Source of the DNA: Acetobacter lovaniensis | GTDB lineage: Bacteria > Pseudomonadota > Alphaproteobacteria > Acetobacterales > Acetobacteraceae | Length of the DNA stretch: 64,000 bases | Direction of reading: 5' to 3' | Assembly: GCF_014207635.1 (NCBI RefSeq) | Contig: NZ_JACHIE010000006.1 | Span: forward strand, 62,001 to 126,000 | Shown: positions 2,081-53,985 of the stretch, piece after piece | How the letters are laid out: each line of letters opens with the position of its first letter | How positions within the stretch are numbered: position 1 is the stretch's first letter | Position numbers and translations under genes: made by a program | The notes under the pieces: generated by a model | Databases searched by the model: none | Told to the model about the DNA's origin: nothing | Seen by the model: the letters and a program-made list of their open reading frames with translations, nothing else

Positions 2081-3658
2081 TCAGGGAGCCAGAAAGGTGC
2101 GGACATCGCGCGCAAGGGCGGCACGGCTGTCCGGGCGGGTGTAGAGCATATGCCCACCGGGGTAGACATGCAGGCCAATGCGGCTGCGGCCGACAGGAAT
2201 ATGCTCCGCCACCCAGCGGGAGGAAGCATAGGGGCACACCAGATCATACGCGCCATTGGCAATGAACACCCGCAGGGTGGGGTTAAGGGCCAGCAGGCGG
2301 CGCAGGGTGGGAATGGGGCGTACAATGGGGGCGTTTGTGTCGCGGTAGTCCCATGCCTGACTTATGGCGTTGTTGAGCAGGTTGTAGCTTAGCTCTGTCT
2401 GGTAGCGCAGTTCGGCGGTGGCGTAATGCTCAAAGGCGCTGCCATAGGCGTGGCCAAACCCGTCCAGCATGGGGTCGGGGCTTTCTCCGTTATCCACCCC
2501 TTCGGGGAAGGGGTCGGCAATGGAGAGTGTCGCGTCATACAGCGAGTACAGGCGGCCATCGCGGCTGCGTATGTCGTGCGCCTCTGGCCGGGGCATGCCG
2601 CGTTGTTTGGCAATAATGTCCTGTTCAATGCCGGTATGGTTGGCGACGGCCTCGTAAAAATCCTCCGCATCATCACCCGTTGGGGGTGTGCCTGCCAGTG
2701 TGCCCAGATATGGCCCCATGGCGTACCGGTATGCCGTGTCCAGATGCTGGGAGATGTTCTCGGGGGTCAGCTTGTGCTGGAGGGCCAGATTGGCGGCCTC
2801 AAGCGAGGGCAGCACAAAGGCTTCGGCCAGAATGTCGTTTTCCGTATCCAGCAGGGTCATGTCCAGTGCGGGGGAGATCATGATCATGCCGTTGAGCAGA
2901 ATGTTCTGGTCTTCGGCCAGCGCGTTGGCCACCTCTATGGCGCGCAGGCCACCATAGCTTTCTCCCGCAAGGTAGCGGGGGGAGGTCAGGCGCTTGTTGG
3001 CGTTGGCCCAGAGCTGAATGGCCTTGGCAAAGGTTCTGGCATCCTGTTTGACGCCATAGAACTGCTTGTCCGCCTGTTTGGGGTCGGTCGGGACCGACCA
3101 GCCCGTGCCCGGTGCGTCCAGAAAAACCAGATCAGCAGCACTCAGCCAGCTTTCGGGGTTGGGCCTGATCTGTGCATTGGCCCCATCGGCGGGGTTGCCT
3201 GTGGGAAAATCAAGCGTGACCGGGCCAGCCGCCCCAAGGTGCAGGTAAGCGGTACCCGCGCCGGGGCCACCGTTAAAAAAATACACGACCGGCCTGTGCG
3301 CAGGGTCCGCCCCATCGCGCGTGTAGGCGGTATAGAACATGCGTGCTGTGGGTTTGCCAGTATCGTCACGCAGGGTCAGCGTGCCTGCTGTTGCGGTGTA
3401 GGTCATTTTCTGCCCACCAAAAGTGCCGTTATGGTGGGTGACCGAATCCCTGGGCAGCATGGCGGCGGCGTCATGGAATGTGTCTGTGTCACTGGGAGGC
3501 TGGGCGGGCTGGCTTGCCTCCGTCGTCCGGGTGGGAGCGGGGGCTGTGGCCGCCAGTGCGGATGTGGTGGACAGGCAGAGGGCAAGGCAGAGGGGCAGAC
3601 CGGGCCACAGGCCAGCGCGGGCGCGGGTAGGGTTGTAAGGTGCTGGGCGTGTGGTCAC
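2081..3658 (-). CDS. Secreted serine carboxypeptidase, peptidase family S10
   Basis: Family S10 enzymes remove C-terminal residues from peptides and work at acid pH, which suits the periplasm or surroundings of an acid-producing bacterium. An N-terminal export signal ends near LCLSTTSALAA. The oxyanion block FFNGGPGAGTAYLHLG, the nucleophile motif AGESYGG, the catalytic aspartate in IANGAYDLVCP and the histidine in YPGGHMLY are all present and in the right order, so the triad is complete. I chose the GTG at 3658 because AAGGAAG stands eight bases before it. An ATG at 3697 or the farthest in-frame start at 3724 would only add residues in front of the signal. It is a single gene, convergent with rpsI. 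Confidence 0.9.
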   Translation of the reverse strand: MTTRPAPYNPTRARAGLWPGLPLCLALCLSTTSALAATAPAPTRTTEASQPAQPPSDTDTFHDAAAMLPRDSVTHHNGTFGGQKMTYTATAGTLTLRDDTGKPTARMFYTAYTRDGADPAHRPVVYFFNGGPGAGTAYLHLGAAGPVTLDFPTGNPADGANAQIRPNPESWLSAADLVFLDAPGTGWSVPTDPKQADKQFYGVKQDARTFAKAIQLWANANKRLTSPRYLAGESYGGLRAIEVANALAEDQNILLNGMIMISPALDMTLLDTENDILAEAFVLPSLEAANLALQHKLTPENISQHLDTAYRYAMGPYLGTLAGTPPTGDDAEDFYEAVANHTGIEQDIIAKQRGMPRPEAHDIRSRDGRLYSLYDATLSIADPFPEGVDNGESPDPMLDGFGHAYGSAFEHYATAELRYQTELSYNLLNNAISQAWDYRDTNAPIVRPIPTLRRLLALNPTLRVFIANGAYDLVCPYASSRWVAEHIPVGRSRIGLHVYPGGHMLYTRPDSRAALARDVRTFLAP

Positions 3659-4348: not shown

Positions 4349-4385
4349 GGGCAGGCTGGCCACGGGCCAGAGCGCTTAAGGCCAC

Positions 4386-4421
4386 AAAAAAGGCTGCTCC
4401 CTTACCGGGGGCAGCCTTTTT
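4386..4421. terminator. Bidirectional terminator between convergent genes
   Basis: AAAAAGGCTGC (4387-4397) pairs with GCAGCCTTTTT (4411-4421), extended by a CCC/GGG step inside. The A-run on one side and T-run on the other let it serve both the small secreted protein gene and the helicase gene on the other strand. Confidence 0.85.
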
Positions 4422-4462
4422 GAGTAGCCCCCCTCTCCAGCAGGAAAGGGGGTGTGTGCAGC

Positions 4463-6229
4463 TTACTTGCGCTTGCGCGAGGACGGACCGCTTTTGCCAG
4501 CCGGTGGGCCTTTGCGGTCAAAATTGGCGCGGCCTTTTGGTGGGCCACGGCGTTCGCCAAACGGGGGGCGACCACCGCCACCCGCGCCGGGTGGGCCTTT
4601 GCGGGGGGCTTCTGCGGGTTCCACGGTCATTTCATCCGCATCGGCAGCGGCGGCGCAGGCGGCAAAGCGCTCGGCCTTGTCCTGTGCGATTTCGACCAGC
4701 GTATGGTCGTTTACAATGCGGATTGCGCCAATATCCTGCTTTTTAATGCCGCCCAGACGGCACAGAACAGGCACCAGCCATTTGGGGTCTGCCCGGTCTG
4801 CCCGGCCGACGGAAAGGCGGAACCAGCTCCCGTTCATGTCGGGTGCGCGTTCACGTGGCTCACGCGGGGGGGCGTTTTCGTCCCGCGGGCCACGGGTGCG
4901 GGTGGCGTCTGGCGTAATCACGCGGAGCTGGGCGGGTTCGGGCAGGCTTTTGCGCCACAGGCCCACAAGGGCGGTGGCAAGCTGCTCAGGCGTATGCTCG
5001 GCCACCAGACGGGCGGTGAGGGCCTGAATGTTCTCGTTCTCCGAAGGGGGGAGCGAGAGGAAGTGCGCGCCCAGAAGGCGTTCGGCATCGGCCTCGGCAA
5101 TGGCCTGCGGGGTGGGGGCGCCACTCCATTCCGCCGTCACCTTGGCGGCCTGGAGCAGGCGTTCGGCCAGACGGCGGCGTGCGGGCGGAACCAGCAGCAC
5201 ACAGGTGCCCTTTTTGCCCGCACGGCCCGTACGGCCCGAGCGGTGCAGCAATGTGGCCGGGTTGGACGGCAGGCTGGCATGGATAACCAGCCCGAGGTCT
5301 GGAATATCAATGCCACGCGCGGCCACGTCGGTCGCCACGCAGACGCGGGCCTGCCCGTGGCGCAGGCTTTCAATGGCGCGGGTGCGCTCGTTCTGTCCCA
5401 GATCGCCTGAAATGGCGACAGAGGCAAAACCGCGCTCGGTCAGAATGTGCTGGAGTTGGCGTACGGCCTCACGCGTGTGGCAGAACACAATGGCGGAGGG
5501 CGAGTCGACCAGACGCAGCACGTTCACCACCGCGCGGGCCATGTCGCCTTGATCCACCAGAATGCCCCGGTAGGTAATGTCTGTATGGGCGGTGTTGGTG
5601 CCTACCGTATCCACGCGCAGCGCATCATGCTGGTAGCGCTTGGCAAGGCCTGCGATCTCACGCGCAATGGTGGCGGAGAACAGCAGGGTGCGGCGGTCCT
5701 TGGGGGTTGCGTCCAGCAGGGTTTCCAGCTCGTCGCGGAAGCCGAGGTCGAGCATTTCGTCCGCTTCGTCCAGCACGGCGGCCTTGAGGTGCGACAGGTC
5801 GAGGTTACCACGCTTGAGGTGGTCGCACAGGCGGCCGGGCGTGCCCACAACAATGTGGCAGCCAGCGGACAGGTGGCGGGCTTCCGTACGGGGTTCCATC
5901 CCCCCTACGCAGGACACGATCCGTGCGCCGGTCTTGGCATAGAGCCATTCCAGCTCGCTGCGGACCTGAAGAGCGAGTTCACGCGTGGGGGCAATGACCA
6001 GCGCCATTGGTGCGCCAGCAGGGCCACAGCGCTCCGCGCCGTTAAGGAGCGTATCCGCAAGGGAAAGGCCAAAGGCAACCGTCTTGCCCGAACCCGTGCG
6101 GGCGGAAACCAGAAGGTCGCGGCCTTTGGCGTCATCCGCCAGAATGGCGGCCTGAACAGAGGTCGGGGCTTCAAACCCGCGCGCGGCCAGAGCCTGAGCG
6201 AGCGGGGCGGGAGCATTTTGGAAAGGCAT
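4463..6229 (-). CDS. DEAD-box ATP-dependent RNA helicase (CsdA/DbpA type)
   Basis: This enzyme unwinds RNA duplexes during ribosome assembly or mRNA decay. All helicase motifs are visible in order: the Q-motif region GFEAPTSVQ, motif I ARTGSGKT, Ia APTRELALQ, Ib VGTPGR, II DEAD, III SAT, IV VFCHTR, V ATDVAARGID and VI HRSGRTGRAGK. After the two RecA domains (about 1-360) there is a spacer, then a DbpA-type RNA-binding domain (about 475-550, WLVPVLCRLGGI) and a Gly/Pro/Arg/Lys-rich tail ending SSRKRK. The ATG at 6229 begins MPFQNAPAP; a TTG at 6247 is possible but neither has a strong ribosome site. It is a single gene, transcribed toward the bidirectional terminator. Confidence 0.93.
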   Translation of the reverse strand: MPFQNAPAPLAQALAARGFEAPTSVQAAILADDAKGRDLLVSARTGSGKTVAFGLSLADTLLNGAERCGPAGAPMALVIAPTRELALQVRSELEWLYAKTGARIVSCVGGMEPRTEARHLSAGCHIVVGTPGRLCDHLKRGNLDLSHLKAAVLDEADEMLDLGFRDELETLLDATPKDRRTLLFSATIAREIAGLAKRYQHDALRVDTVGTNTAHTDITYRGILVDQGDMARAVVNVLRLVDSPSAIVFCHTREAVRQLQHILTERGFASVAISGDLGQNERTRAIESLRHGQARVCVATDVAARGIDIPDLGLVIHASLPSNPATLLHRSGRTGRAGKKGTCVLLVPPARRRLAERLLQAAKVTAEWSGAPTPQAIAEADAERLLGAHFLSLPPSENENIQALTARLVAEHTPEQLATALVGLWRKSLPEPAQLRVITPDATRTRGPRDENAPPREPRERAPDMNGSWFRLSVGRADRADPKWLVPVLCRLGGIKKQDIGAIRIVNDHTLVEIAQDKAERFAACAAAADADEMTVEPAEAPRKGPPGAGGGGRPPFGERRGPPKGRANFDRKGPPAGKSGPSSRKRK

Positions 6230-44215: not shown

Positions 44216-45766
44216 ATGCTGCAATGGCTGAACAAGGACGCTCCGTTCCGCGAGAAGATTCGTGTCGTTATGCTGTGTCTGGAAGCATATTTCATGTTCC
44301 AGATCATTGTAGAGACGGTTGGCTTTTTCTGGCATGCGCCAGTCCATTACACGTATATCATCAACATGGCGGCCCTTGTTTTCGGTCAGTTGGTTGTCTG
44401 GCAGATCTGGCGGTGGTTCACGAGCCTGATTACCGAACCGGTTGAAAAACTGGCCACGATGGGTGAAGAACTCGGCAACGGCGTCGCCCACAGCAATATT
44501 CCCTTCCTCAAGAACAAAGACTGCGTTGGCCGCCTTGCCCGGATTATGGCGCGTTTCTCCCGCATGGTGGAAGAGCAGGCCACTGCCCGCCAGCGGCAGG
44601 AAAAAATGGCGTCCGAAATTCAGGGCGCGCTGACCGGCAGTCAGGAGCGCGACAAGCATACCCATCTGGTTATCGAGCGTCTGGGGCAGGCTCTGGCCGA
44701 CATGGCGCAGGGTGACCTGCGCGCACGGATTGAAGACCCGATCTTTGATGGCGAATTCGCCCCCCTGCGTGATGCGTTCAACCATTCCGCCTCCCGCCTG
44801 AACGAAGCGCTGAGCGCTGTTGCCTCCAATTCGGACCTGATCTCCACCGGTGCGGCAGAAATTTCCACCGCCTCGGACGATCTGGCCAAGCGGACGGAAA
44901 AGCAGGCCGCCAATCTCGGGCAGGCGGCTTCCTCCGTGCGGACCATTACCGAAGGTGTGCAGAGCAACGCCAAAGCCTGCGCCGACGCCAATGCCGAAAG
45001 CCAGAAAGCGCTGGAAAAGGTCAAGGCCGCAACAAAGATCATGACCGAAACCACCGCCGCCATGGACGGGATCAAAAGCTCTTCCGATGCGATTGGCGAA
45101 ATTATTTCGGTCATTGACGGCATTGCCTTCCAGACCAACGTGCTGGCCCTGAACGCCGGGGTGGAAGCTGCCCGTGCGGGCGAGGCCGGGCGCGGGTTTG
45201 CCGTGGTTGCGCAGGAAGTGCGCTCGCTGGCCGAACAGTCCGCAACATCTGCCAGCGAGATCAAACGCCTGATTTCCGTGGCGGCCGAGCAGGTGAGCAA
45301 GGGTGTGGACCTGGTGCAGCAGACCGGGCGTTACCTGAACGATTTTGCTGGCAGCACCCAGAACATTGCGACCCGGGTTGAGGAAATTTCCTCCTCCACG
45401 CAGGATCAGGCCCAGCGCCTGTCTGAAGTTACGGCCTCTATTGGCGGTATGGATCAGGTTACGCAGCAGAACGCCGCCATGGTGGAAGAAACCACGGCAG
45501 CCAGCCATAACCTGACCGCCGAAACCCGGACGCTGGCAGCGACACTCAGCCGCTTTAAAATGGATACGGCCGGGGGGCGTGCAAGTCAGGCGTCCCGTCC
45601 CGCACTTGTGGCCCCGCGTTCTTCTCCCCCCCGGCCCAAACCGTCTGCTCCGGCCCGTGTGGCGCCGCCAGCTCCAGCACCGGTCACGCCTCCCCCGGCG
45701 GCCCCGGCCTCGTCTGCGCTGTCCATGCCCACCACCTCTTCCGATGCGGGCTGGGAAGAATTTTAA
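44216..45766 (+). CDS. Methyl-accepting chemotaxis protein with no periplasmic sensor domain
   Basis: The 516-residue chemoreceptor has two hydrophobic helices close together (about 17-38 and 45-68) with only a few residues between, so no outside ligand domain. A HAMP-like region and a long helical coiled coil follow; the signalling hairpin tip [37 protein letters not shown] is perfectly conserved (residues about 300-336, split here as key words [17 protein letters not shown] and [10 protein letters not shown]). After about residue 450 an Ala/Pro/Ser linker leads to a GWEEF end, like the CheR-docking NWETF tail of E. coli receptors. It likely senses internal energy or redox state. Chemotaxis genes follow downstream. 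Confidence 0.95.
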
Positions 45767-45834: not shown

Positions 45835-46101
45835 TTGGTTAGTGTGACCTTACCTGAACGTCTGGACAGTTCGGCGGCGTTTGCCCTGAAGAGTGAGATC
45901 GAACAGGCTGTTAAAAATACCGGAGGCGGGCAGGTTGCTCTGGACGCCTCCGGCGTGACGTACCTAGGAGGACTGTGTTTGCAGGTTCTCCTCGCCAGCA
46001 GATGCCCCCTTGTGGCGCCATCGGAGCCAGTCGTGGAAGCATACGGCCTTTTTGGCGTAAGTGCGTATCTGACCGAACCGCTAGCGTCATTGAAGGAGTG
46101 A
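45835..46101 (+). CDS. STAS-domain protein at head of the chemotaxis operon
   Basis: An 88-residue single STAS domain, the fold of anti-sigma-factor antagonists such as SpoIIAA. Strand VSVTLPERLDSSAA, helix ALKSEIEQAV and strand GQVALDASGVTYLGG fit. The position that carries the phosphorylatable serine in SpoIIAA (DSSGL) reads YLGGL here, so switching by serine phosphorylation seems lost. The TTG at 45835 has AAGGGAGCGG before it; a GTG at 45844 is an alternative. The stop overlaps the cheY start by one base, so it is part of the operon. A short hairpin (AGGGGTC/GACCCCT, 45788-45805) lies before it, without a T-tail. Confidence 0.75.
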   Translation: MVSVTLPERLDSSAAFALKSEIEQAVKNTGGGQVALDASGVTYLGGLCLQVLLASRCPLVAPSEPVVEAYGLFGVSAYLTEPLASLKE

Positions 46102-46493
46102 TGAGGACTATGGTGGAAAAATTGGGCATTCGTGTCCTGACAGTTGATGATTCGCGCACCATGCAGGGTATGCTCCGCAAGGCTCTGGAAGGAGCAGGGT
46201 ACGAGGTTATTCAGGGTGGAGATGGCGTAGAGGGGCTGGAAGTGCTTCAGGAAGCCGACCCCACTCCCAATGCGATTATTACAGATATCAACATGCCCCG
46301 CATGGATGGCTTTGAGTTTATCGAGGCGGTCCGGGCGATGGATCAGTACAAACATCTGCCAATGATCGTTCTGACAACGGAAAGCGATCCCGAGAAAAAA
46401 GCCCGTGCCCGTGCAGCAGGCGCGACAGGGTGGATTGTCAAGCCGTTCAGCACAGATAGCCTTGTGGCGGCTATCCGCCGGGTGACCGCCTGA
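46101..46493 (+). CDS. cheY: Chemotaxis response regulator CheY (first copy)
   Basis: A single receiver domain. From the ATG at 46101 the key residues are the acidic pair in TVDDSRT, phospho-acceptor Asp62 (ITDINMPRMDG), the Thr/Ser switch in LTTES, and Lys in VKPFSTDSL. Length of 130 residues is standard. CheY-P would bind FliM/FliN to change rotation. The ATG at 46101 overlaps the STAS stop, and an ATG at 46110 is the alternative; both have GGAG just upstream. cheA starts 17 bases downstream. A second CheY gene follows cheB. Confidence 0.93.
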   Translation: MRTMVEKLGIRVLTVDDSRTMQGMLRKALEGAGYEVIQGGDGVEGLEVLQEADPTPNAIITDINMPRMDGFEFIEAVRAMDQYKHLPMIVLTTESDPEKKARARAAGATGWIVKPFSTDSLVAAIRRVTA

Positions 46494-46510: not shown

Positions 46511-48790
46511 ATGAGTGGTGACATGGACGATATCCTTCTGGTTTTTTTCCAGGAGTGTGAAGAGCAGCTTCAGGAACTGGAGCGTGGCCTGTCTGCCCTC
46601 TCGGATGGTGAGTCCGGGAAGGAGACAATCAACGCCGTTTTTCGTGCCGTGCATTCGGTCAAGGGCGGGGCTGCATCGTTCGGTCTGGAAAATCTGGTCC
46701 GCTTTGCGCATGTCTTCGAAAGTTCTCTCGATGGTCTGCGTTCCGGCCGTGTCGCCCCTACGCCAGAGATCGTCAAAACCTTTCTCAAGGCCATGGATGT
46801 TCTGAGCGATCTGGTCGCCGAGGCACAGGGGGGTGCTACGGTTGATACCGGCCGGATAGAGGAAAGTCGCGTCGAACTTCAGGCCATTATTGGTGAAGGC
46901 AGCGGCAGTGCCGGGCCAAAGGAAGATGATACCGTTCCCGCCGATTTTGCGCCTGTTCCGGTGGATTTTGAACCGGTCATGGCCGATTTCGACTTCGGTG
47001 ATTTCGGCGTGGAGGAAGACGCTCCGGCCGATGCGGCATCGCTTGTCGTGACGTTCAGCCCCCATGCCGCCATGTATGACCGGGGAGATGATGCGCGCAA
47101 CCTGCTGATTGGCCTGTCCGATGTGGCCGTGGCCCACGGTGGCACAAGCATGGTCACATGCGAAACCGCAGCCCTGCCTGCGCTGGGAAGTCTGGAAACC
47201 GAAAAATCCTACCTGTCATGGCGCGTGGTCCTGCCCGCCGCCGTGCCGGAGGAAAGCGTGCACACGGTCTTCGACTGGGTGAGTGATGTGTGCGATGTGA
47301 CCATCACGCGTGATGGTGGCTCCAGCCCCGGTTCCAGCAGCCAGGAAGAGCCGGCCGAGGCACAGGCAGCCCTGGCCGAGCCGGAAGCGGAACCGGAAGC
47401 GCCCGTTCCGGCGGCAGTTCAGGCCGCTCCTGTACAGGCTCCTGTGGCTGCCAGCCATGCGCGTACTCCGACGTCCATTGCCGAAAAAATCATGGCGGAG
47501 CTGCCGCCTGCGCCAACCCCTGCCGCCACGGCCCCTATTGCCGCAGGCAATACCGCCACGCGCCGCCCGGTTGAGCAGGCGACCATCCGCGTGGATCTCC
47601 ACCGTGTGGACGACCTGATGGACCTTGTGGGCGAACTGGTGATTGCACAGGCCGCTCTGGAATCCATTGGCCAGCGGGAGGACGGTGGCCAGCAGGAAAT
47701 GATCAAGCGCATTGCCAGCATGAAAACCCTGACGCGCGACATTCAGGACGCCGTCATGGCCGTGCGGGCCCAGCCGGTGCGCAGCGTGTTCCAGCGCATG
47801 CAGCGTGTTGTGCGCGAGGCCTGCTCCATGACCAACAAGGACGTGGTGCTGACGCTGGAGGGTGAGGACACGGAAGTGGACCGCACTCTGGTTGAAAAAC
47901 TGTCTGATCCGCTGACCCACATGCTGCGCAACGCGGTGGACCACGGGATTGAAAGTGCCGAGACCCGGATTGCCGCAGGCAAACCCCCCACCGGGCAGAT
48001 CCTGCTTTCCGCCGGGCACCGTTCTGGCCGCATCCTCATCACCATCAAGGACGATGGGGGCGGGATCAACCGTGAGCGCGTTCTGGCCACTGCGGTCAAG
48101 CGCGGCATTATTGCCCCCGACGCGGTGCTGACGGATGATGAGGTCAACAACCTGATCTTTGCTCCGGGCTTTTCCACCGCTTCCACCGTGTCCGACCTTT
48201 CGGGCCGCGGGGTGGGGATGGACGTGGTCAAGCAGGCCATTCTGGGGCTTGGCGGGCGTGTGACAATCAACAGCGTGGAAGGACAGGGCACCACCTTCTG
48301 TCTGAGTCTGCCGCTGACACTGGCCGTGCTGGATGGCATGCTGATCGTGGCCGCCGGGTCCACCATGGTTGTTCCGGTGTCCTCCGTGGTGGAAACCATG
48401 ATGGTCAACCACAAGGACATTTACATGCTGCCCGATGGCGCCAATGTTGTGTCCATCCGTGGGGCGTGCATGCCGCTTATTCCGCTGGCGTCCGAACTGG
48501 GGCTTGACGGGTACAAGGCGGGTGGTCCGTCCGAGGAGGACGTCATTCTGGTGGTGGAAAACGAGTCCGGGGCGCGTGCGGCCCTGATTGTGGAGGATAT
48601 CCGCGATCAGGCGCAGGTGGTGATCAAGAGCATCGAGAAAAACTATCGGCAGATGTCTGGTGTGTCCGCTGCCACCATTCTGGGGGATGGGAGCGTTTCC
48701 CTCATTCTGGATGTTCCCGCACTGGTTGCCAACGCGCTGGGACGGATTGACACAAGACCATCGGATGTTCGCACAGGACTTGCGGCATAA
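46511..48790 (+). CDS. cheA: Chemotaxis histidine kinase CheA
   Basis: CheA relays receptor signal to CheY and CheB. The 759 residues contain the Hpt domain with His48 (AVHSVKGGAASFG), a second domain around 160-260 with VVTFSPHAAMYDRGDDARNLL (a P2-like module seen in alphaproteobacterial CheA), an Ala/Pro/Glu linker, the dimerisation domain with DDLMDLVGELVIAQAALE, the ATPase boxes N (HMLRNAVDHGIE), G1 (DDGGGIN), F (FAPGFSTA) and G2 (GRGVGMDVVK), and the CheW-like C-terminal domain ending near residue 745. All kinase motifs are intact. ATG at 46511 with AGGAGAGAG upstream. Confidence 0.97.
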   Translation: MSGDMDDILLVFFQECEEQLQELERGLSALSDGESGKETINAVFRAVHSVKGGAASFGLENLVRFAHVFESSLDGLRSGRVAPTPEIVKTFLKAMDVLSDLVAEAQGGATVDTGRIEESRVELQAIIGEGSGSAGPKEDDTVPADFAPVPVDFEPVMADFDFGDFGVEEDAPADAASLVVTFSPHAAMYDRGDDARNLLIGLSDVAVAHGGTSMVTCETAALPALGSLETEKSYLSWRVVLPAAVPEESVHTVFDWVSDVCDVTITRDGGSSPGSSSQEEPAEAQAALAEPEAEPEAPVPAAVQAAPVQAPVAASHARTPTSIAEKIMAELPPAPTPAATAPIAAGNTATRRPVEQATIRVDLHRVDDLMDLVGELVIAQAALESIGQREDGGQQEMIKRIASMKTLTRDIQDAVMAVRAQPVRSVFQRMQRVVREACSMTNKDVVLTLEGEDTEVDRTLVEKLSDPLTHMLRNAVDHGIESAETRIAAGKPPTGQILLSAGHRSGRILITIKDDGGGINRERVLATAVKRGIIAPDAVLTDDEVNNLIFAPGFSTASTVSDLSGRGVGMDVVKQAILGLGGRVTINSVEGQGTTFCLSLPLTLAVLDGMLIVAAGSTMVVPVSSVVETMMVNHKDIYMLPDGANVVSIRGACMPLIPLASELGLDGYKAGGPSEEDVILVVENESGARAALIVEDIRDQAQVVIKSIEKNYRQMSGVSAATILGDGSVSLILDVPALVANALGRIDTRPSDVRTGLAA

Positions 48791-48838: not shown

Positions 48839-49294
48839 ATGACGGACGAAGCCGGGGCGGACACCAAACTTGTCAAGATGATCGTGTTTGCGGTGGGTGA
48901 GCAGGAATATTGTATTCCTATCCTGAGCGTGCGCGAAATTCGTGGCTTTGAAAAAACGACAGCCCTGCCGTTTGCCCCGCATTATGTGTGCGGTGCGATC
49001 AACCTGCGCGGTATCATCCTGACCGTGATCGACCTTGCGGTCTATCTGAACGTGGAGCCGCTGCCCGATAACCCGCGCCGCGTGGTGGTGATTGTGGAAT
49101 CCCGCAATGGTACGGTGTGTGGCCTGCTGGTGGACCGGGTGATCGACATGGCCGATGTCAATCTGGCCGACATTCAGGCCGTGGCTGAGGAAGACAGCAG
49201 CCTGAGCGGTCTGGTCATGATTGCGGACCGCATGATTGGCGTGCTCCGGCTTGAGGTTGTGGTCGGCCAGCTGGTGGGTGGGATGACTTCCTGA
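48839..49294 (+). CDS. cheW: Chemotaxis coupling protein CheW
   Basis: CheW bridges CheA to receptor tips. The 151 residues include VFAVGEQEYCIPILSVREI, the GAINLRGIILTVIDL block and VIVESRNGTVCGLLVDRVIDM, all typical. The ATG at 48839 (MTDEAGAD) has AGGA eight bases upstream; the ATG at 48833 would add two residues and the TTG at 48821 four more. It follows cheA and its stop overlaps the cheR start by one base. Confidence 0.96.
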   Translation: MTDEAGADTKLVKMIVFAVGEQEYCIPILSVREIRGFEKTTALPFAPHYVCGAINLRGIILTVIDLAVYLNVEPLPDNPRRVVVIVESRNGTVCGLLVDRVIDMADVNLADIQAVAEEDSSLSGLVMIADRMIGVLRLEVVVGQLVGGMTS

Positions 49295-50136
49295 TGGGGG
49301 AGGTGAGTTCCACTGCCGATCCAGAATATACAGACGCCGACTTTCAGATGGTTCGGCGGATTGCCAAGCAGGAAGCGGGGATTTTTATTCCCGATTCCAA
49401 AAGTACGCTGGTGTATTCGCGCGTGTCCCGCCGCGTGCGGGAAAACGGGATGGGCAGTTTTCACGCCTATCTCAACTATGTGCAAAGCCCATCTGGCCGG
49501 GCGGAAATGGAAAAGCTGGTCTGTGCGCTGACAACCAACGTCACCAGCTTTTTCCGCGAACGACCGCATTTTGTGCATATGGAGCAGACTGTCATGCCAG
49601 CGCTTGCCGCCAAGCTGCGCAGTGGCGGGCGCGGGCGCATCTGGTCTGCCGCATGTTCCACAGGGCAGGAGCCGTGGAGCATTGCCATGTCTGTTCTGTC
49701 GGCTTTTCCCGAAGCGGCGTCGTATGACATGCGTATTCTGGCAACCGACATCAACTCCAAAGTGGTGGCGCAGGCTGCCGCTGGGACCTATGTCGCCAGT
49801 GAGACGGATGGCATTTCCAATGCCCAGAAAAACCAGTTCATGCAGGCCGACGATCAGGGGAACCTGACTTTTGTTGGCGATATCCGCGCGCTTCCGGTCT
49901 TCAAGGTGCTGAACCTGAATGCCGACTGGCCGATGCGGGGACAGTTTGCGGTTATTTTCTGCCGCAACGTCGTGATTTATTTTGATGAACCCACGCGTGA
50001 GCGCCTGTGGGGGCGTCTGGCCGACAAGCTGGAAAAAGGGGGGTTTCTGTATGTCGGTCACTCCGAAAAAGTGGCCGACCCCCGCCAGTGCGGTCTGGAG
50101 CAGGTCGCCCCGACCATTTACCGGAAAGCAAGCTGA
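49294..50136 (+). CDS. cheR: Chemotaxis receptor methyltransferase CheR
   Basis: CheR uses S-adenosylmethionine to methylate glutamates on receptors. The 280-residue enzyme has the N-terminal helical domain, the SAM loop WSAACSTGQEPWSIAM, DINSKVVAQAAAGTY, and the late VIFCRNVVIYFDEPTRERL signature. The C-terminal block VGHSEKVADP is typical. In this operon the receptor tail GWEEF could be a CheR docking peptide. cheB follows after three bases. ATG at 49294 overlaps the cheW stop. Confidence 0.96.
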   Translation: MGEVSSTADPEYTDADFQMVRRIAKQEAGIFIPDSKSTLVYSRVSRRVRENGMGSFHAYLNYVQSPSGRAEMEKLVCALTTNVTSFFRERPHFVHMEQTVMPALAAKLRSGGRGRIWSAACSTGQEPWSIAMSVLSAFPEAASYDMRILATDINSKVVAQAAAGTYVASETDGISNAQKNQFMQADDQGNLTFVGDIRALPVFKVLNLNADWPMRGQFAVIFCRNVVIYFDEPTRERLWGRLADKLEKGGFLYVGHSEKVADPRQCGLEQVAPTIYRKAS

Positions 50137-50139
50137 TTG

Positions 50140-51180
50140 ATGCCCCAGCCAGTAAGAGTTCTGATTGTCGATGATTCACGCACGATCCGTGCGCTGATCA
50201 AGCGTTCCTTCGCGCAGAATCCTGATATTGAAGTCTGTGGTGAGGCGGCAAATCCGCTGGAAGCGCGTGACCTGATTATCAAGGACCAGCCGGACGTGAT
50301 TACCCTGGACGTGGAAATGCCGGGGATGAATGGCCTGCAGTTTCTGGAAAAAATCATGCGGATGCGCCCCATCCCCGTTGTCATGGTGTCCAGCCTGACA
50401 GCCAAGGGAGCGGATACGGCCATTACGGCGCTCCAGATGGGGGCGTTTGACTGCTACCCCAAACACAACGTGGCTCCGGGGGAGGATGCGTTTGCAGGCC
50501 TTGGGCGGCTGGTTGTGCTGGCGGCCCGTTCGCAGCCGGTCTCGCGCATTCAGCGGCGCACGCCTCCTTCCCCGGTGGGTCACGTGCAGACCACGTGGGG
50601 CAATTCGGTGGACCTTGTGGCGATTGGTTCGTCCACCGGTGGGGTGGAGGCGCTGGAAGAAGTGCTTACGGGGTTTCCGCCAAAAAGCCCGCCGGTTGTT
50701 ATCTGCCAGCATATGCCTCCGCTGTTTACCGCCAGTTTTGCAAATCGGCTCAATCAGTCCATGTCGGCACTCTCCATTGCCGAAGCGCGGGAGGGAGAGG
50801 TGCTGCAACCCGGCATGGTCCGCATTGCCCCCGGTGGGGACCGGCACCTTGTGGTCGATAATGGCGGCGGCAAATACGTGACACGGCTGATCAGCGGTGC
50901 GCCGGTCAGCGGGCACTGCCCCTCGGTGGATGTGCTGTTCAAGTCTGTCGCCAAACATGCCGGGAGGAATGCGCTGGGAATCATCCTGACCGGCATGGGG
51001 CGGGATGGCGCCGAAGGACTGCTGAGCATGCGGCAGGCTGGTGCCTATACAATCGCGCAGGACAAAACGTCCTCAGTTGTTTATGGAATGCCACGGGTTG
51101 CGGCGGAAATTGGTGCGGCCTGTCAGGTTGTGCCACTGCGCCAGATCAGCTCTGCGGCCATGGCCATTCACACGCGCTAA
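50140..51180 (+). CDS. cheB: Chemotaxis response regulator methylesterase CheB
   Basis: CheB removes receptor methyl groups when phosphorylated. The 346 residues have the receiver domain with the DDSRT acidic pair and phospho-Asp57 (VITLDVEMPGMNG) and, after a linker, the esterase domain: catalytic Ser in AIGSSTGGVEAL, His in ICQHMPP and Asp in GMGRDGAEGLL. ATG at 50140, directly after an in-frame TTG. A hairpin without a clear T-tail follows, before the second cheY. Confidence 0.96.
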   Translation: MPQPVRVLIVDDSRTIRALIKRSFAQNPDIEVCGEAANPLEARDLIIKDQPDVITLDVEMPGMNGLQFLEKIMRMRPIPVVMVSSLTAKGADTAITALQMGAFDCYPKHNVAPGEDAFAGLGRLVVLAARSQPVSRIQRRTPPSPVGHVQTTWGNSVDLVAIGSSTGGVEALEEVLTGFPPKSPPVVICQHMPPLFTASFANRLNQSMSALSIAEAREGEVLQPGMVRIAPGGDRHLVVDNGGGKYVTRLISGAPVSGHCPSVDVLFKSVAKHAGRNALGIILTGMGRDGAEGLLSMRQAGAYTIAQDKTSSVVYGMPRVAAEIGAACQVVPLRQISSAAMAIHTR

Positions 51181-51212: not shown

Positions 51213-51271
51213 GTCTATCGGCTGCCGGTCTTTGATGGCTGGAATTGAGACTAGGAATAAGGGGGAGACAA

Positions 51272-51661
51272 ATGCCTGCCGCTTCACAAATCAAGGCCCT
51301 GATCGTAGATGACCAGGCCTCTATCCGTCAGGTTCTGGCTAACAGTATGGCTGAAATCGGCTTTACCAACATAGCCCAGCGCAAGGATGGCAAGGAGGCT
51401 TTGGAATATCTGGACCAGAACCCCACACATCTGGTGATTTCCGACTTCAACATGCCGGTTATGGATGGTCTGGCCCTGCTGCGTGCGGTGCGGAGCAACC
51501 CGAAAATCCAGAAAGTGGCATTTATTATCCTGACCGGTGAAGCCAGCAAGGATCTGGTGCAGGAAGCGGTCAAGGCTGGTGTTAACAACTTCCTTGCCAA
51601 ACCTTACACTGTAGCCAAGCTACGTGAGGTTCTGGAAAAGGTGTTCGGACCGATCAAGTGA
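51272..51661 (+). CDS. cheY: Chemotaxis response regulator CheY (second copy)
   Basis: A 129-residue single receiver domain with the acidic pair in IVDDQAS, phospho-Asp58 (VISDFNMPVMDG), Thr in ILTGEA and Lys in LAKPYTVAKL. It differs from the first copy in and around its active site, so the two likely have distinct partners, for example one acting on the motor and one as a phosphate sink, as in rhizobia. The ATG at 51272 has a GGGGGAGA ribosome site. cheD overlaps its stop by four bases. Confidence 0.94.
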   Translation: MPAASQIKALIVDDQASIRQVLANSMAEIGFTNIAQRKDGKEALEYLDQNPTHLVISDFNMPVMDGLALLRAVRSNPKIQKVAFIILTGEASKDLVQEAVKAGVNNFLAKPYTVAKLREVLEKVFGPIK

Positions 51662-52218
51662 GCGATCACACCGTAGTTAAAACGGTTATTCAGGGCGAAG
51701 TAGAAATTTCTGGCGATCCGTCAGTTGTTTTTGCAACACTGCTTGGCTCCTGCATTTCAGTCTGCATGTTTGACCCGCTGGCGCATGTCGGTGGCATTAA
51801 TCATTTTCTGCTGCCAGATGGCGGTGTGAGTGAAACCGGCATGGCCATGCGGTTTGGCGTGAACTCCATGGAAATGCTGGTCAACGGTCTGCTCAAGGCT
51901 GGGGCGCAGCGCAGCCGTCTGGTGTGCAAGGTTTTTGGTGGTGCGGCCGTTGTGCCCAGTCTGGGCCGCATCGGGCAGGAAAATATTCGTTTTGTAACCA
52001 ACTATCTGGTGGATGAAGGTATTCGCTGCGTGTCGCAGAGTCTGGGCGGCACATTGGCACGGCGTATTCGGTTCTGGCCAACAACGGGCCGTGCACAGCA
52101 GAATCTGGTGCAGGACGTGCTGGGTATTGGCAAGCAGGAAGTCGCCTACAGCCGGCGTGAGGCTGAAGCAGAGCGGAAATGGGCTAAGGAAGCCAGTTCC
52201 GAGGTCGAGCTGTTCTAA
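51658..52218 (+). CDS. cheD: Chemoreceptor glutamine deamidase CheD
   Basis: CheD deamidates glutamines on receptors to give methylatable glutamates. The 186-residue protein has the catalytic Cys32 in LGSCISVCMFD, His49 in GGINHFLLPDG and the conserved KVFGGAAVVP and RIRFWPTTGR blocks. It starts with a GTG at 51658 overlapping the second cheY stop (GTGA). The C-terminal tail EASSEVELF continues past the usual family end; the next gene product ends with a similar tail. Confidence 0.95.
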   Translation: MSDHTVVKTVIQGEVEISGDPSVVFATLLGSCISVCMFDPLAHVGGINHFLLPDGGVSETGMAMRFGVNSMEMLVNGLLKAGAQRSRLVCKVFGGAAVVPSLGRIGQENIRFVTNYLVDEGIRCVSQSLGGTLARRIRFWPTTGRAQQNLVQDVLGIGKQEVAYSRREAEAERKWAKEASSEVELF

Positions 52219-52245: not shown

Positions 52246-52632
52246 ATGGATGTGGTGCCCCCTTTGCCCCATGGTGTAGCCGGAAGCGCATGTAGCCTGC
52301 ACGATGTTATGGACCATCTGGTGGAACTTCTGGATGAAACCTGTCAGGACTTTATGGGTGTGCAGCGCGTGGTCGGCGAAAACATGGCCACCGCATCGTT
52401 GAGTGATACGGATGCACACATCCTGCAAAAGCTGGATTCCGCCACGCAAATGGTGGAAGCCGTGTCCACCGTGCTTAAAAATCTGGTTGTCTGTTATGAG
52501 CAGGACGAAACACAGCCGCTCGATGTTGGCACTCTGAGTCAGGGCGTTAAGCTTTCCCATGTTATTCGGGTGCTTCGCTATGGCATACAGGCTGAGACAG
52601 TCAGACCTTCTGGCGTAGTGGACCTGTTTTAA
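52246..52632 (+). CDS. Small chemotaxis-operon protein with a DxxxQ motif, CheZ/CheT-like phosphatase candidate
   Basis: The 128-residue all-helical protein closes the che operon, 28 bases after cheD, with AGAGGAAGAAG before its ATG. Asp64 and Gln68 form DxxxQ within KLDSATQMVEAVST. The phosphatases CheZ, CheX/FliY relatives and the rhizobial CheT use an acid-xxx-Gln/Asn helix to insert a glutamine or asparagine that hydrolyses CheY-P. The end GVVDLF is an acidic-aromatic tail, as at the CheZ C-terminus, which binds CheY. Family assignment is from motif, size and position only. Confidence 0.6.
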   Translation: MDVVPPLPHGVAGSACSLHDVMDHLVELLDETCQDFMGVQRVVGENMATASLSDTDAHILQKLDSATQMVEAVSTVLKNLVVCYEQDETQPLDVGTLSQGVKLSHVIRVLRYGIQAETVRPSGVVDLF

Positions 52633-52698: not shown

Positions 52699-53985
52699 TC
52701 ATGCTCCGGTTTGCGGAGCGCGTGCGGAGCCAGCAAGCCGGGCACGCGCCAGTCCCCACCCGACCATTAAAAAGACCCACCCTGCCGTGCGTTCCGTAAA
52801 CAGGGAACTGGTCGAGGCAAGGGGCCAGAACAGCATGCACGCTGTAATAAAAAGCATGGCTTGCATAAGGTCCCGGCCCGCAAGTGCGGCCTGAAGCAGT
52901 TTTTTCAACCAGAGCAGAACCATCCATACAAACAGGAACAGTCCTGACAGCCCCGCCGTGGTGGCGATTTCCAGATAGGTGTTGTGCGGGTGAATGGTGC
53001 ACCCCGCTCCTATGTCCTGCCCGGCAATCATGCTGGTAAACTGCGGAATACCGTACAGATAGGCTGTCTCGCCACAATGGATGCGAAAACCGTTATAGCC
53101 CAGCCCAAGCAGGGGGTGCGCGTGCACCATGTTGAGCGCACGCATATAAAGCTGGCCATAAGGGGACTGCGAAAAATGCCCGAGTTGCTCAAAAAAGCGC
53201 AGGATCAGCTTGTTATAGGACGGGGGGGAGATAAACGGCAGGAGCCCCAGCGCCACAACACCGGACAGTGTGGCCAGCAGAACCGTAACCCGTGTGGTTT
53301 TGACCAGCATGGCGCACAGGAAAAATCCAAAAAACACCAGCAGTGCGGGCATTCTCTGCCCGATCATGACCATGGTCAGCAGTAGAAAAGACATAAGGGC
53401 CAGCCCCGCCAGCTTCCGGGCCAGCTCCTTTTTCTGCACCATGCGCATGGGGTAGATCATCAGTCCGGGGAACATGATGATTGCGAGGGGTGGTCCGGCA
53501 CGGGGTTGAAAAAACGGGCCGGTCAGGGCGCCATCCTGCCAGCGGGGATAGCCCCACAGGTTAACTCCGAGCAGATACTGCTCCCAGCACTGGCAGATGA
53601 TCCACACCCCGGCCAGTGTGACGCTCAGACCCAGCAGGTGCTGCTTTTGCGCACTATCCAGCAGCCATTCTTCCAGCGCTTTGACAAAAACAAAATAACG
53701 CAGGAGCGCTATGGCTTCCAGAACGGCATGTGTGGACCCGTTGAGTATGGAGGAAACAACGATAACGCCCCAAAGCCCCAGAGCGCAGGGGAACCACCCA
53801 TGCAGGAGGCATCGGTAATGTTTTTCAAAAGTGCAGTATAGTAAAAAGCTTATTGCAATAAACAGGATACTCAGATCCGCTATGGCGCGACCACGTAATT
53901 GGAAAAAAGGCAGGAAAACACAGAGGGCCAGAGAGATTTTTTTTAAATGAACATCGCACGATATAAGAAAGGTTTTCATGGTCAT
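52699..53985 (-). CDS. O-antigen ligase/polymerase-family membrane protein
   Basis: A 428-residue inner-membrane protein with about ten to twelve helices and the Wzy/WaaL-family signature HPHNTYLEIATTAGLSGLFLF in the long periplasmic loop before the last helices (short key part HPHNTYLEI). It joins polysaccharide to a lipid acceptor or polymerises units; which of the two cannot be told by eye. The ATG at 53985 has GGAG upstream; a further ATG two codons on is equal. It is convergent with the che operon, with no gene between. Upstream of it 53986-54356 (371 bases) has no believable gene. Confidence 0.8.
   Translation of the reverse strand: MTMKTFLISCDVHLKKISLALCVFLPFFQLRGRAIADLSILFIAISFLLYCTFEKHYRCLLHGWFPCALGLWGVIVVSSILNGSTHAVLEAIALLRYFVFVKALEEWLLDSAQKQHLLGLSVTLAGVWIICQCWEQYLLGVNLWGYPRWQDGALTGPFFQPRAGPPLAIIMFPGLMIYPMRMVQKKELARKLAGLALMSFLLLTMVMIGQRMPALLVFFGFFLCAMLVKTTRVTVLLATLSGVVALGLLPFISPPSYNKLILRFFEQLGHFSQSPYGQLYMRALNMVHAHPLLGLGYNGFRIHCGETAYLYGIPQFTSMIAGQDIGAGCTIHPHNTYLEIATTAGLSGLFLFVWMVLLWLKKLLQAALAGRDLMQAMLFITACMLFWPLASTSSLFTERTAGWVFLMVGWGLARARLAGSARAPQTGA

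Follow-up and report, generated by a model that had tools for sequence, protein, structure and literature searches.

A divergent CheT homolog, probably an accessory CheY-P phosphatase, at the end of a two-CheY che operon in Acetobacter lovaniensis

The window analyzed here, a 64,000-nucleotide stretch of an Acetobacter lovaniensis contig (NZ_JACHIE010000006.1, positions 62,001 to 126,000), contains a chemotaxis operon with the order mcp-cheS-cheY1-cheA-cheW-cheR-cheB-cheY2-cheD-orf, in which a small cheT-like reading frame comes last. The features of the locus, numbered from the first nucleotide of the window, are as follows.

44216..45766, + strand: chemoreceptor (MCP) gene; the protein ends GWEEF
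45835..46101, + strand: cheS, a single STAS domain
46110..46493, + strand: cheY1, start inferred inside the listed ORF 45975-46493
46511..48790, + strand: cheA, the sole CheA found in the genome
48821..49294, + strand: cheW
49294..50136, + strand: cheR
50137..51180, + strand: cheB
51245..51661, + strand: cheY2
51658..52218, + strand: cheD (Pfam CheD); the protein ends EVELF
52246..52632, + strand: cheT-like gene, 128 residues; predicted helical hairpin 18-47 / 54-86; Q61-x-x-D64-x-x-x-Q68; tail GVVDLF
52426..52449, + strand: codons for the invariant motif Q61 to Q68 (QKLDSATQ), from position arithmetic and conservation
52615..52629, + strand: codons of the C-terminal pentapeptide VVDLF, a tail resembling the receptor pentapeptide, from sequence
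52699-53985, opposite strand, convergent: Wzy_C-domain (O-antigen ligase) gene, the next gene after the cheT-like ORF

A spacer of 27 bases separates cheD from the cheT-like ORF, which is preceded by an AGGAAG-like ribosome site; its ATG start is supported by the Acetobacter orientalis homolog, which opens with the same MDVVP. The reading frame, its Asp64-Ser-Ala-Thr-Gln68 motif and its GVVDLF end are as the initial annotation read them, and the gene is, as proposed there, the last of the operon. The protein scores below the cut-off of every Pfam and NCBIfam model and is without a Pfam family; in the records examined, the acetic-acid-bacterial gene bears the annotation 'hypothetical protein'. 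Among the ten receptor matches of this genome, at least two carry a pentapeptide (GWEEF, DWSDF), and a receptor signaling domain on contig 8 has one internal stop, probably marking a decayed receptor.

The position of the gene after cheD in a two-CheY operon, also part of that annotation, recurs in Shinella and in A. orientalis. In Shinella sp. PSBB067, Pfam matches give the order mcp, STAS, receiver, CheA, CheW, CheR, CheB, receiver, CheD, CheT; this genome was chosen for the check because the cheA of Sinorhizobium sp. C101 is split over several frames in its record and the C101 gene order was read by eye. An A. orientalis plasmid has the same che gene order, and its last gene, a 'hypothetical protein', is 65% identical to that of the window. 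The two CheY proteins each have a counterpart in Sinorhizobium sp. C101, with 64% identity for CheY1 and 51% for CheY2, compared with 34-37% for the cross pairs.

Within a sample of 200 genomes from the family of the bacterium, the window protein is matched in 11, its own genome included, and CheD is present in 32. Downstream of CheD, 22 of these 32 genomes carry a cheT-like gene or a diverged form of it, two of the diverged rows being weak by the ten-row profile alone (L030, E 0.008; L023, E 0.18). The other ten have cheB immediately after cheD, a second operon type. A class-wide search with the ten-row profile matched 5 of 385 genomes, the own genome and L043 among them; the class-wide matches L044, L045 and L046 are long or unrelated frames and were rejected as false. 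A scan with a CheD alignment, from which the best 80 of at least 583 loci were kept by likeness to the window's CheD, places a homologous ORF after CheD in 63 of the 80, in Acetobacter, Gluconobacter, Gluconacetobacter, Bombella, many Rhizobiaceae (Sinorhizobium, Agrobacterium, Shinella) and Caulobacter vibrioides. Of the 17 loci among the best 80 that have no homolog after CheD, 11 bear Rhodobacterales names, and absence right after CheD does not equal absence from the genome, the gene of G221 lying ~4 kb from CheD. A clean profile, built without rhizobial or Caulobacter rows and omitting the false rows L044 and L045 of an earlier iterative profile, recovers all 63 homologs among 175 candidate ORFs, the worst of them at E 1.4e-11 and the best other ORF at E 0.61. 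This profile and the ten-row profile A1 rank the same 63 ORFs first; A1 alone is poor on the weakest rows (S. americanum, E 0.02; S. glycinis, E 0.042).

Plasmids carry the complete che operon in A. orientalis (pAOF1) and Komagataeibacter saccharivorans (p92689), with IS elements and transposases beside one copy and flagellar genes beside the other, and three other genomes of the same genus in the family sample have no match for CheD or the cheT-like gene. The che module with its cheT-like gene looks mobile and patchy. In Azospirillum brasilense p4 a cheD stands alone, its annotated neighbors including no other che gene. Two other Acetobacteraceae genomes with CheD-CheB type operons encode a small protein after cheB (L013, reverse complement 2951-3295; L014, 2964-3293) that contains IDRFxQ, a DxxxQ motif, and ends VELF or AELF; it is possibly a second CheT-like family. 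A 375-residue soluble receptor-like protein, also encoded after cheB (L080, reverse complement 4382-5506), contains FQDLTKQ, a motif of CheZ type, and its C-terminus, GGDIELF, has this tail as well.

The relation to rhizobial CheT was assessed with profiles built from disjoint sets of rows. The 10 acetic-acid-bacterial rows align with 18 rhizobial rows over the full length (hhalign, Prob 95.4, E 1.7e-8, 117 columns) and with 11 Caulobacter-led rows (Prob 98.5, E 2.4e-15), and the rhizobial and Caulobacter-led profiles match each other at E 1.3e-9. Pairwise identity between the window protein and Sinorhizobium americanum CheT is only 19%, and direct BLASTP, which misaligned the sequences (E 0.007 for one pair), was set aside for the profile comparison. 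The NCBIfam model NF047973 (CtxProtCheTAlpha), whose equivalog cut-off is 200 bits, accepts S. americanum (243.8 bits), Sinorhizobium sp. C101 (228.2 bits) and Shinella sp. PSBB067 (223.5 bits), and leaves Agrobacterium MEJ076 (198.3 bits) and Caulobacter vibrioides (18.9 bits) below it. It gives no match to the window protein at E up to 10 and none to the A. okinawensis, A. orientalis and A. pasteurianus homologs at E up to 0.1; the equivalog is narrow. Because the window protein does not reach the 200-bit cut-off, we file the gene as a divergent homolog of CheT outside the NCBIfam equivalog, an assignment argued for by the full-length profile match to rhizobia, the gene order shared with Shinella and the absence of a CheZ match described below. 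The right comparison is CheT, to which gene order, the CheY orthologies and the homology between profiles all point. The likeness to CheT initially suggested thus stands as full-length homology and not as membership of the curated equivalog. We found no paper that describes CheT from acetic acid bacteria, to which CheT, reported in 2024 from S. meliloti, would now extend.

A DxxxQ motif in one single sequence is weak and without significance: the 40 long ORFs of the window hold 44 such sites in 17,911 residues, and from these ORFs the probability of at least one in 128 residues is ~0.27. These odds speak for a small protein of the operon that is unrelated and bears its motif by chance, a reading made exceedingly improbable by the invariance of the motif across Acetobacteraceae, Rhizobiaceae and Caulobacteraceae. 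Q61, D64 and Q68 are identical in 64/64 rows (63 homologs from the best 80 of at least 583 CheD loci, plus the window), which include near-duplicates and are dependent, and QxxDxxxQ is found in 24/24 further rows from other genomes, a set that leaves out L044-L046, excluded beforehand as false matches. Homologs without D64 and Q68, named by the initial annotation as the finding that would count against it, thus occur in neither set. In the 54-row alignment these three residues are the sole invariant columns; a first ten-row alignment had 11, D64 and Q68 among them. For a family with a mean column identity of 36%, such invariance is far beyond chance, and the final F is kept in 62 of the same 64 rows (best 80 of at least 583 CheD loci, plus the window). 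The candidate active site is narrowed to three invariant residues, of which Q61 lies outside the CheZ motif, and conservation of the D/Q pair could reflect binding instead of catalysis.

The AlphaFold2 model of the window protein, based on 54 rows (pLDDT 79.9), predicts helices at 18-47 and 54-86 followed by a low-confidence tail. The motif is placed on the second of these, in line with the helical location first proposed, and S. americanum CheT, modeled at pLDDT 74.8, is laid out alike, DxxxQ again falling on the second helix. Projected onto an ideal helix, the three residues Q61, D64 and Q68 point 138-178 degrees away from the hydrophobic direction, and the face they form is probably exposed. 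Foldseek and VIA searches with the monomer model return generic, uninformative hairpins and no CheZ in the rows shown, a result that does not count against a CheZ-like fold. A PDB sequence search yields mostly coiled-coil and designed helical proteins, with no CheZ among the matches listed.

Could the protein instead be a true CheZ in shortened form? In layout the protein recalls CheZ as described in PMC7750401, with the same motif spacing, a hairpin of helices, a flexible segment and a peptide at the C-terminus. Against this, a Pfam search of the window protein gives no CheZ match at E up to 1, profile-profile comparison with 17 alphaproteobacterial CheZ rows gives probabilities of 0.6% and 1.9%, and where CheZ has an invariant FQD this family has QxxD, which leaves a shortened CheZ very unlikely. 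The CheZ consensus, ACNFQDLTGQ, has no conserved Q at the offset of Q61. Pfam also gives no CheX or CheC match in the protein, and a search of its own genome gives no match for CheZ, CheX or CheC, so that a bacterium without such matches gains a candidate phosphatase. Among 372 genomes of the class sample, from which both the CheT and the CheZ counts are assumed to be drawn, CheZ is present in 0/8 CheT genomes and in 144/364 others, with a Fisher p of 0.025 that is uncorrected for relatedness and rests on 8 CheT genomes picked from 14 matches. The weak CheT matches dropped (G258, G305, G379, G413, G419 and G500) include three genomes with CheZ (G305, G413 and G500), and the anti-correlation is weak. 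The observation behind the initial label, a CheZ/CheT-style motif, is confirmed, with its CheT side supported by profiles, gene order and CheY orthologies and its CheZ side lacking a sequence relation; that the protein works like CheZ is an analogy to which the sequence gives no link.

According to a 2025 review (PMC12654446), CheT of S. meliloti has a DXXXQ motif and a CheZ-like model, speeds the decay of only one of two CheY-P and forms a complex with CheR, and CheT homologs occur in C. crescentus; an earlier review (PMC8429497) describes CheY1 as a phosphate sink and cheT mutants as defective in chemotaxis. We consider it likely that the window gene encodes a divergent CheT that serves a CheS/CheY1/CheY2 system as a small accessory phosphatase with a helical-hairpin fold. 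By analogy, the protein is most likely a CheY-P phosphatase working like S. meliloti CheT, for which CheY1-P is reportedly the target and the affinity for CheR is said to be micromolar. The second-helix face with Q61, D64 and Q68 would dock on phosphorylated CheY, and Q68 would enter the CheY active site and, together with D64, orient the attacking water, as in CheZ. The protein may act as a dimer. If S. meliloti is a guide, only one of the CheYs would be the target, the sink CheY1 being the likeliest, and loss of CheY1-P via the sink would shorten the CheY2-P signal. Signal termination may thus run through the sink CheY1 and not the motor CheY, since S. meliloti CheT is reviewed as dephosphorylating only one of two CheYs.

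A binding protein without catalysis would explain part of the same evidence: its helix face would hold CheY-P and its tail CheR, making it a scaffold or buffer that links termination and adaptation. Q61 matches D64 and Q68 in its invariance but has no conserved equivalent in CheZ, the tail pattern is conserved in 57 of the 64 rows, and the CheT-CheR complex of S. meliloti (PMC12654446) fits such a role. Yet the D-x-x-x-Q spacing that CheZ and NarX require to act as phosphatases, according to PMC3510030, is invariant here, and the faster decay of one CheY-P reported in PMC12654446 for the homolog favors catalysis, so that a purely binding function seems unlikely.

The C-terminal tail is a further candidate functional element. 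In the best 80 of at least 583 CheD loci, the pattern (hydrophobic/aromatic)-(D/E)-x-F ends 57/64 CheT (the window included) and 67/81 CheD, and it is found in 0/351 CheA, CheW, CheR, CheB or CheY2 sequences, assigned to che families by best phmmer hit. The 13 receptors of these loci all end W-x-(D/E)-(F/Y), 5/13 satisfying the strict tail pattern. PMC7390727 describes receptor pentapeptides as CheR- and CheB-binding sequences in which position 2 is mainly W, position 5 mainly F and the remaining positions acidic. From sequence, CheT and CheD share a tail resembling this docking peptide, a feature that is new here; we found no paper on it, and the original CheT paper may discuss the tail. Given that S. 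meliloti CheT forms a complex with CheR, a possible role for this tail is as a soluble mimic of the receptor pentapeptide W-x-(D/E)-F, through which CheY phosphatase and receptor deamidase would dock on CheR and/or CheB by the receptors' own docking site, a proposal we put forward tentatively and with low confidence. Several features count against it: the beta-subdomain loop of acetic-acid-bacterial CheR is shorter than that of rhizobial CheR, the window tail VVDLF has V and no aromatic residue at position 2, and 7/64 CheT tails miss the pattern (three Bombella with T, one Agrobacterium with C, and L113, L114 and L123). The last three end DWF, VWEEV and AWEML, each W recalling the receptor pentapeptide, and in Bombella L107, L110 and L118 CheD is without the ELF tail and CheT keeps a TLF tail. 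If the mimic is real, termination and adaptation enzymes would compete for, or be co-assembled by, one docking code across Alphaproteobacteria, and the tail suggests a directly testable route by which CheT finds CheR.

Among known systems, CheX and CheC perform the same task on CheY-P with a fold that differs from that of the window protein. CheX uses an ExxN motif (PMC3510030), unlike the DxxxQ found here, and has no Pfam match in the protein. HisKA_3 sensor kinases such as NarX likewise carry a DxxxQ phosphatase motif on a helix (PMC3510030), whereas the window protein is without a kinase domain or a Pfam match. E. coli CheZ (PF04344) is similar in having DxxxQ on a hairpin helix, a linker and a C-terminal peptide; it differs in its lack of detectable sequence homology, in its FQDxTGQ motif in place of QxxDxxxQ and in its length, with 214 residues compared with 128 and no long C-terminal helix predicted here. 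From S. meliloti CheT, compared via S. americanum and other relatives, the window protein differs by its ~19% identity, its position outside the curated model, its VVDLF tail in place of DFEAF and the shorter CheR loop in its operon. It shares with that CheT the operon place after cheD, the CheS/two-CheY system, a predicted hairpin whose second helix carries DxxxQ, a low-confidence tail ending in F and homology at the profile level.
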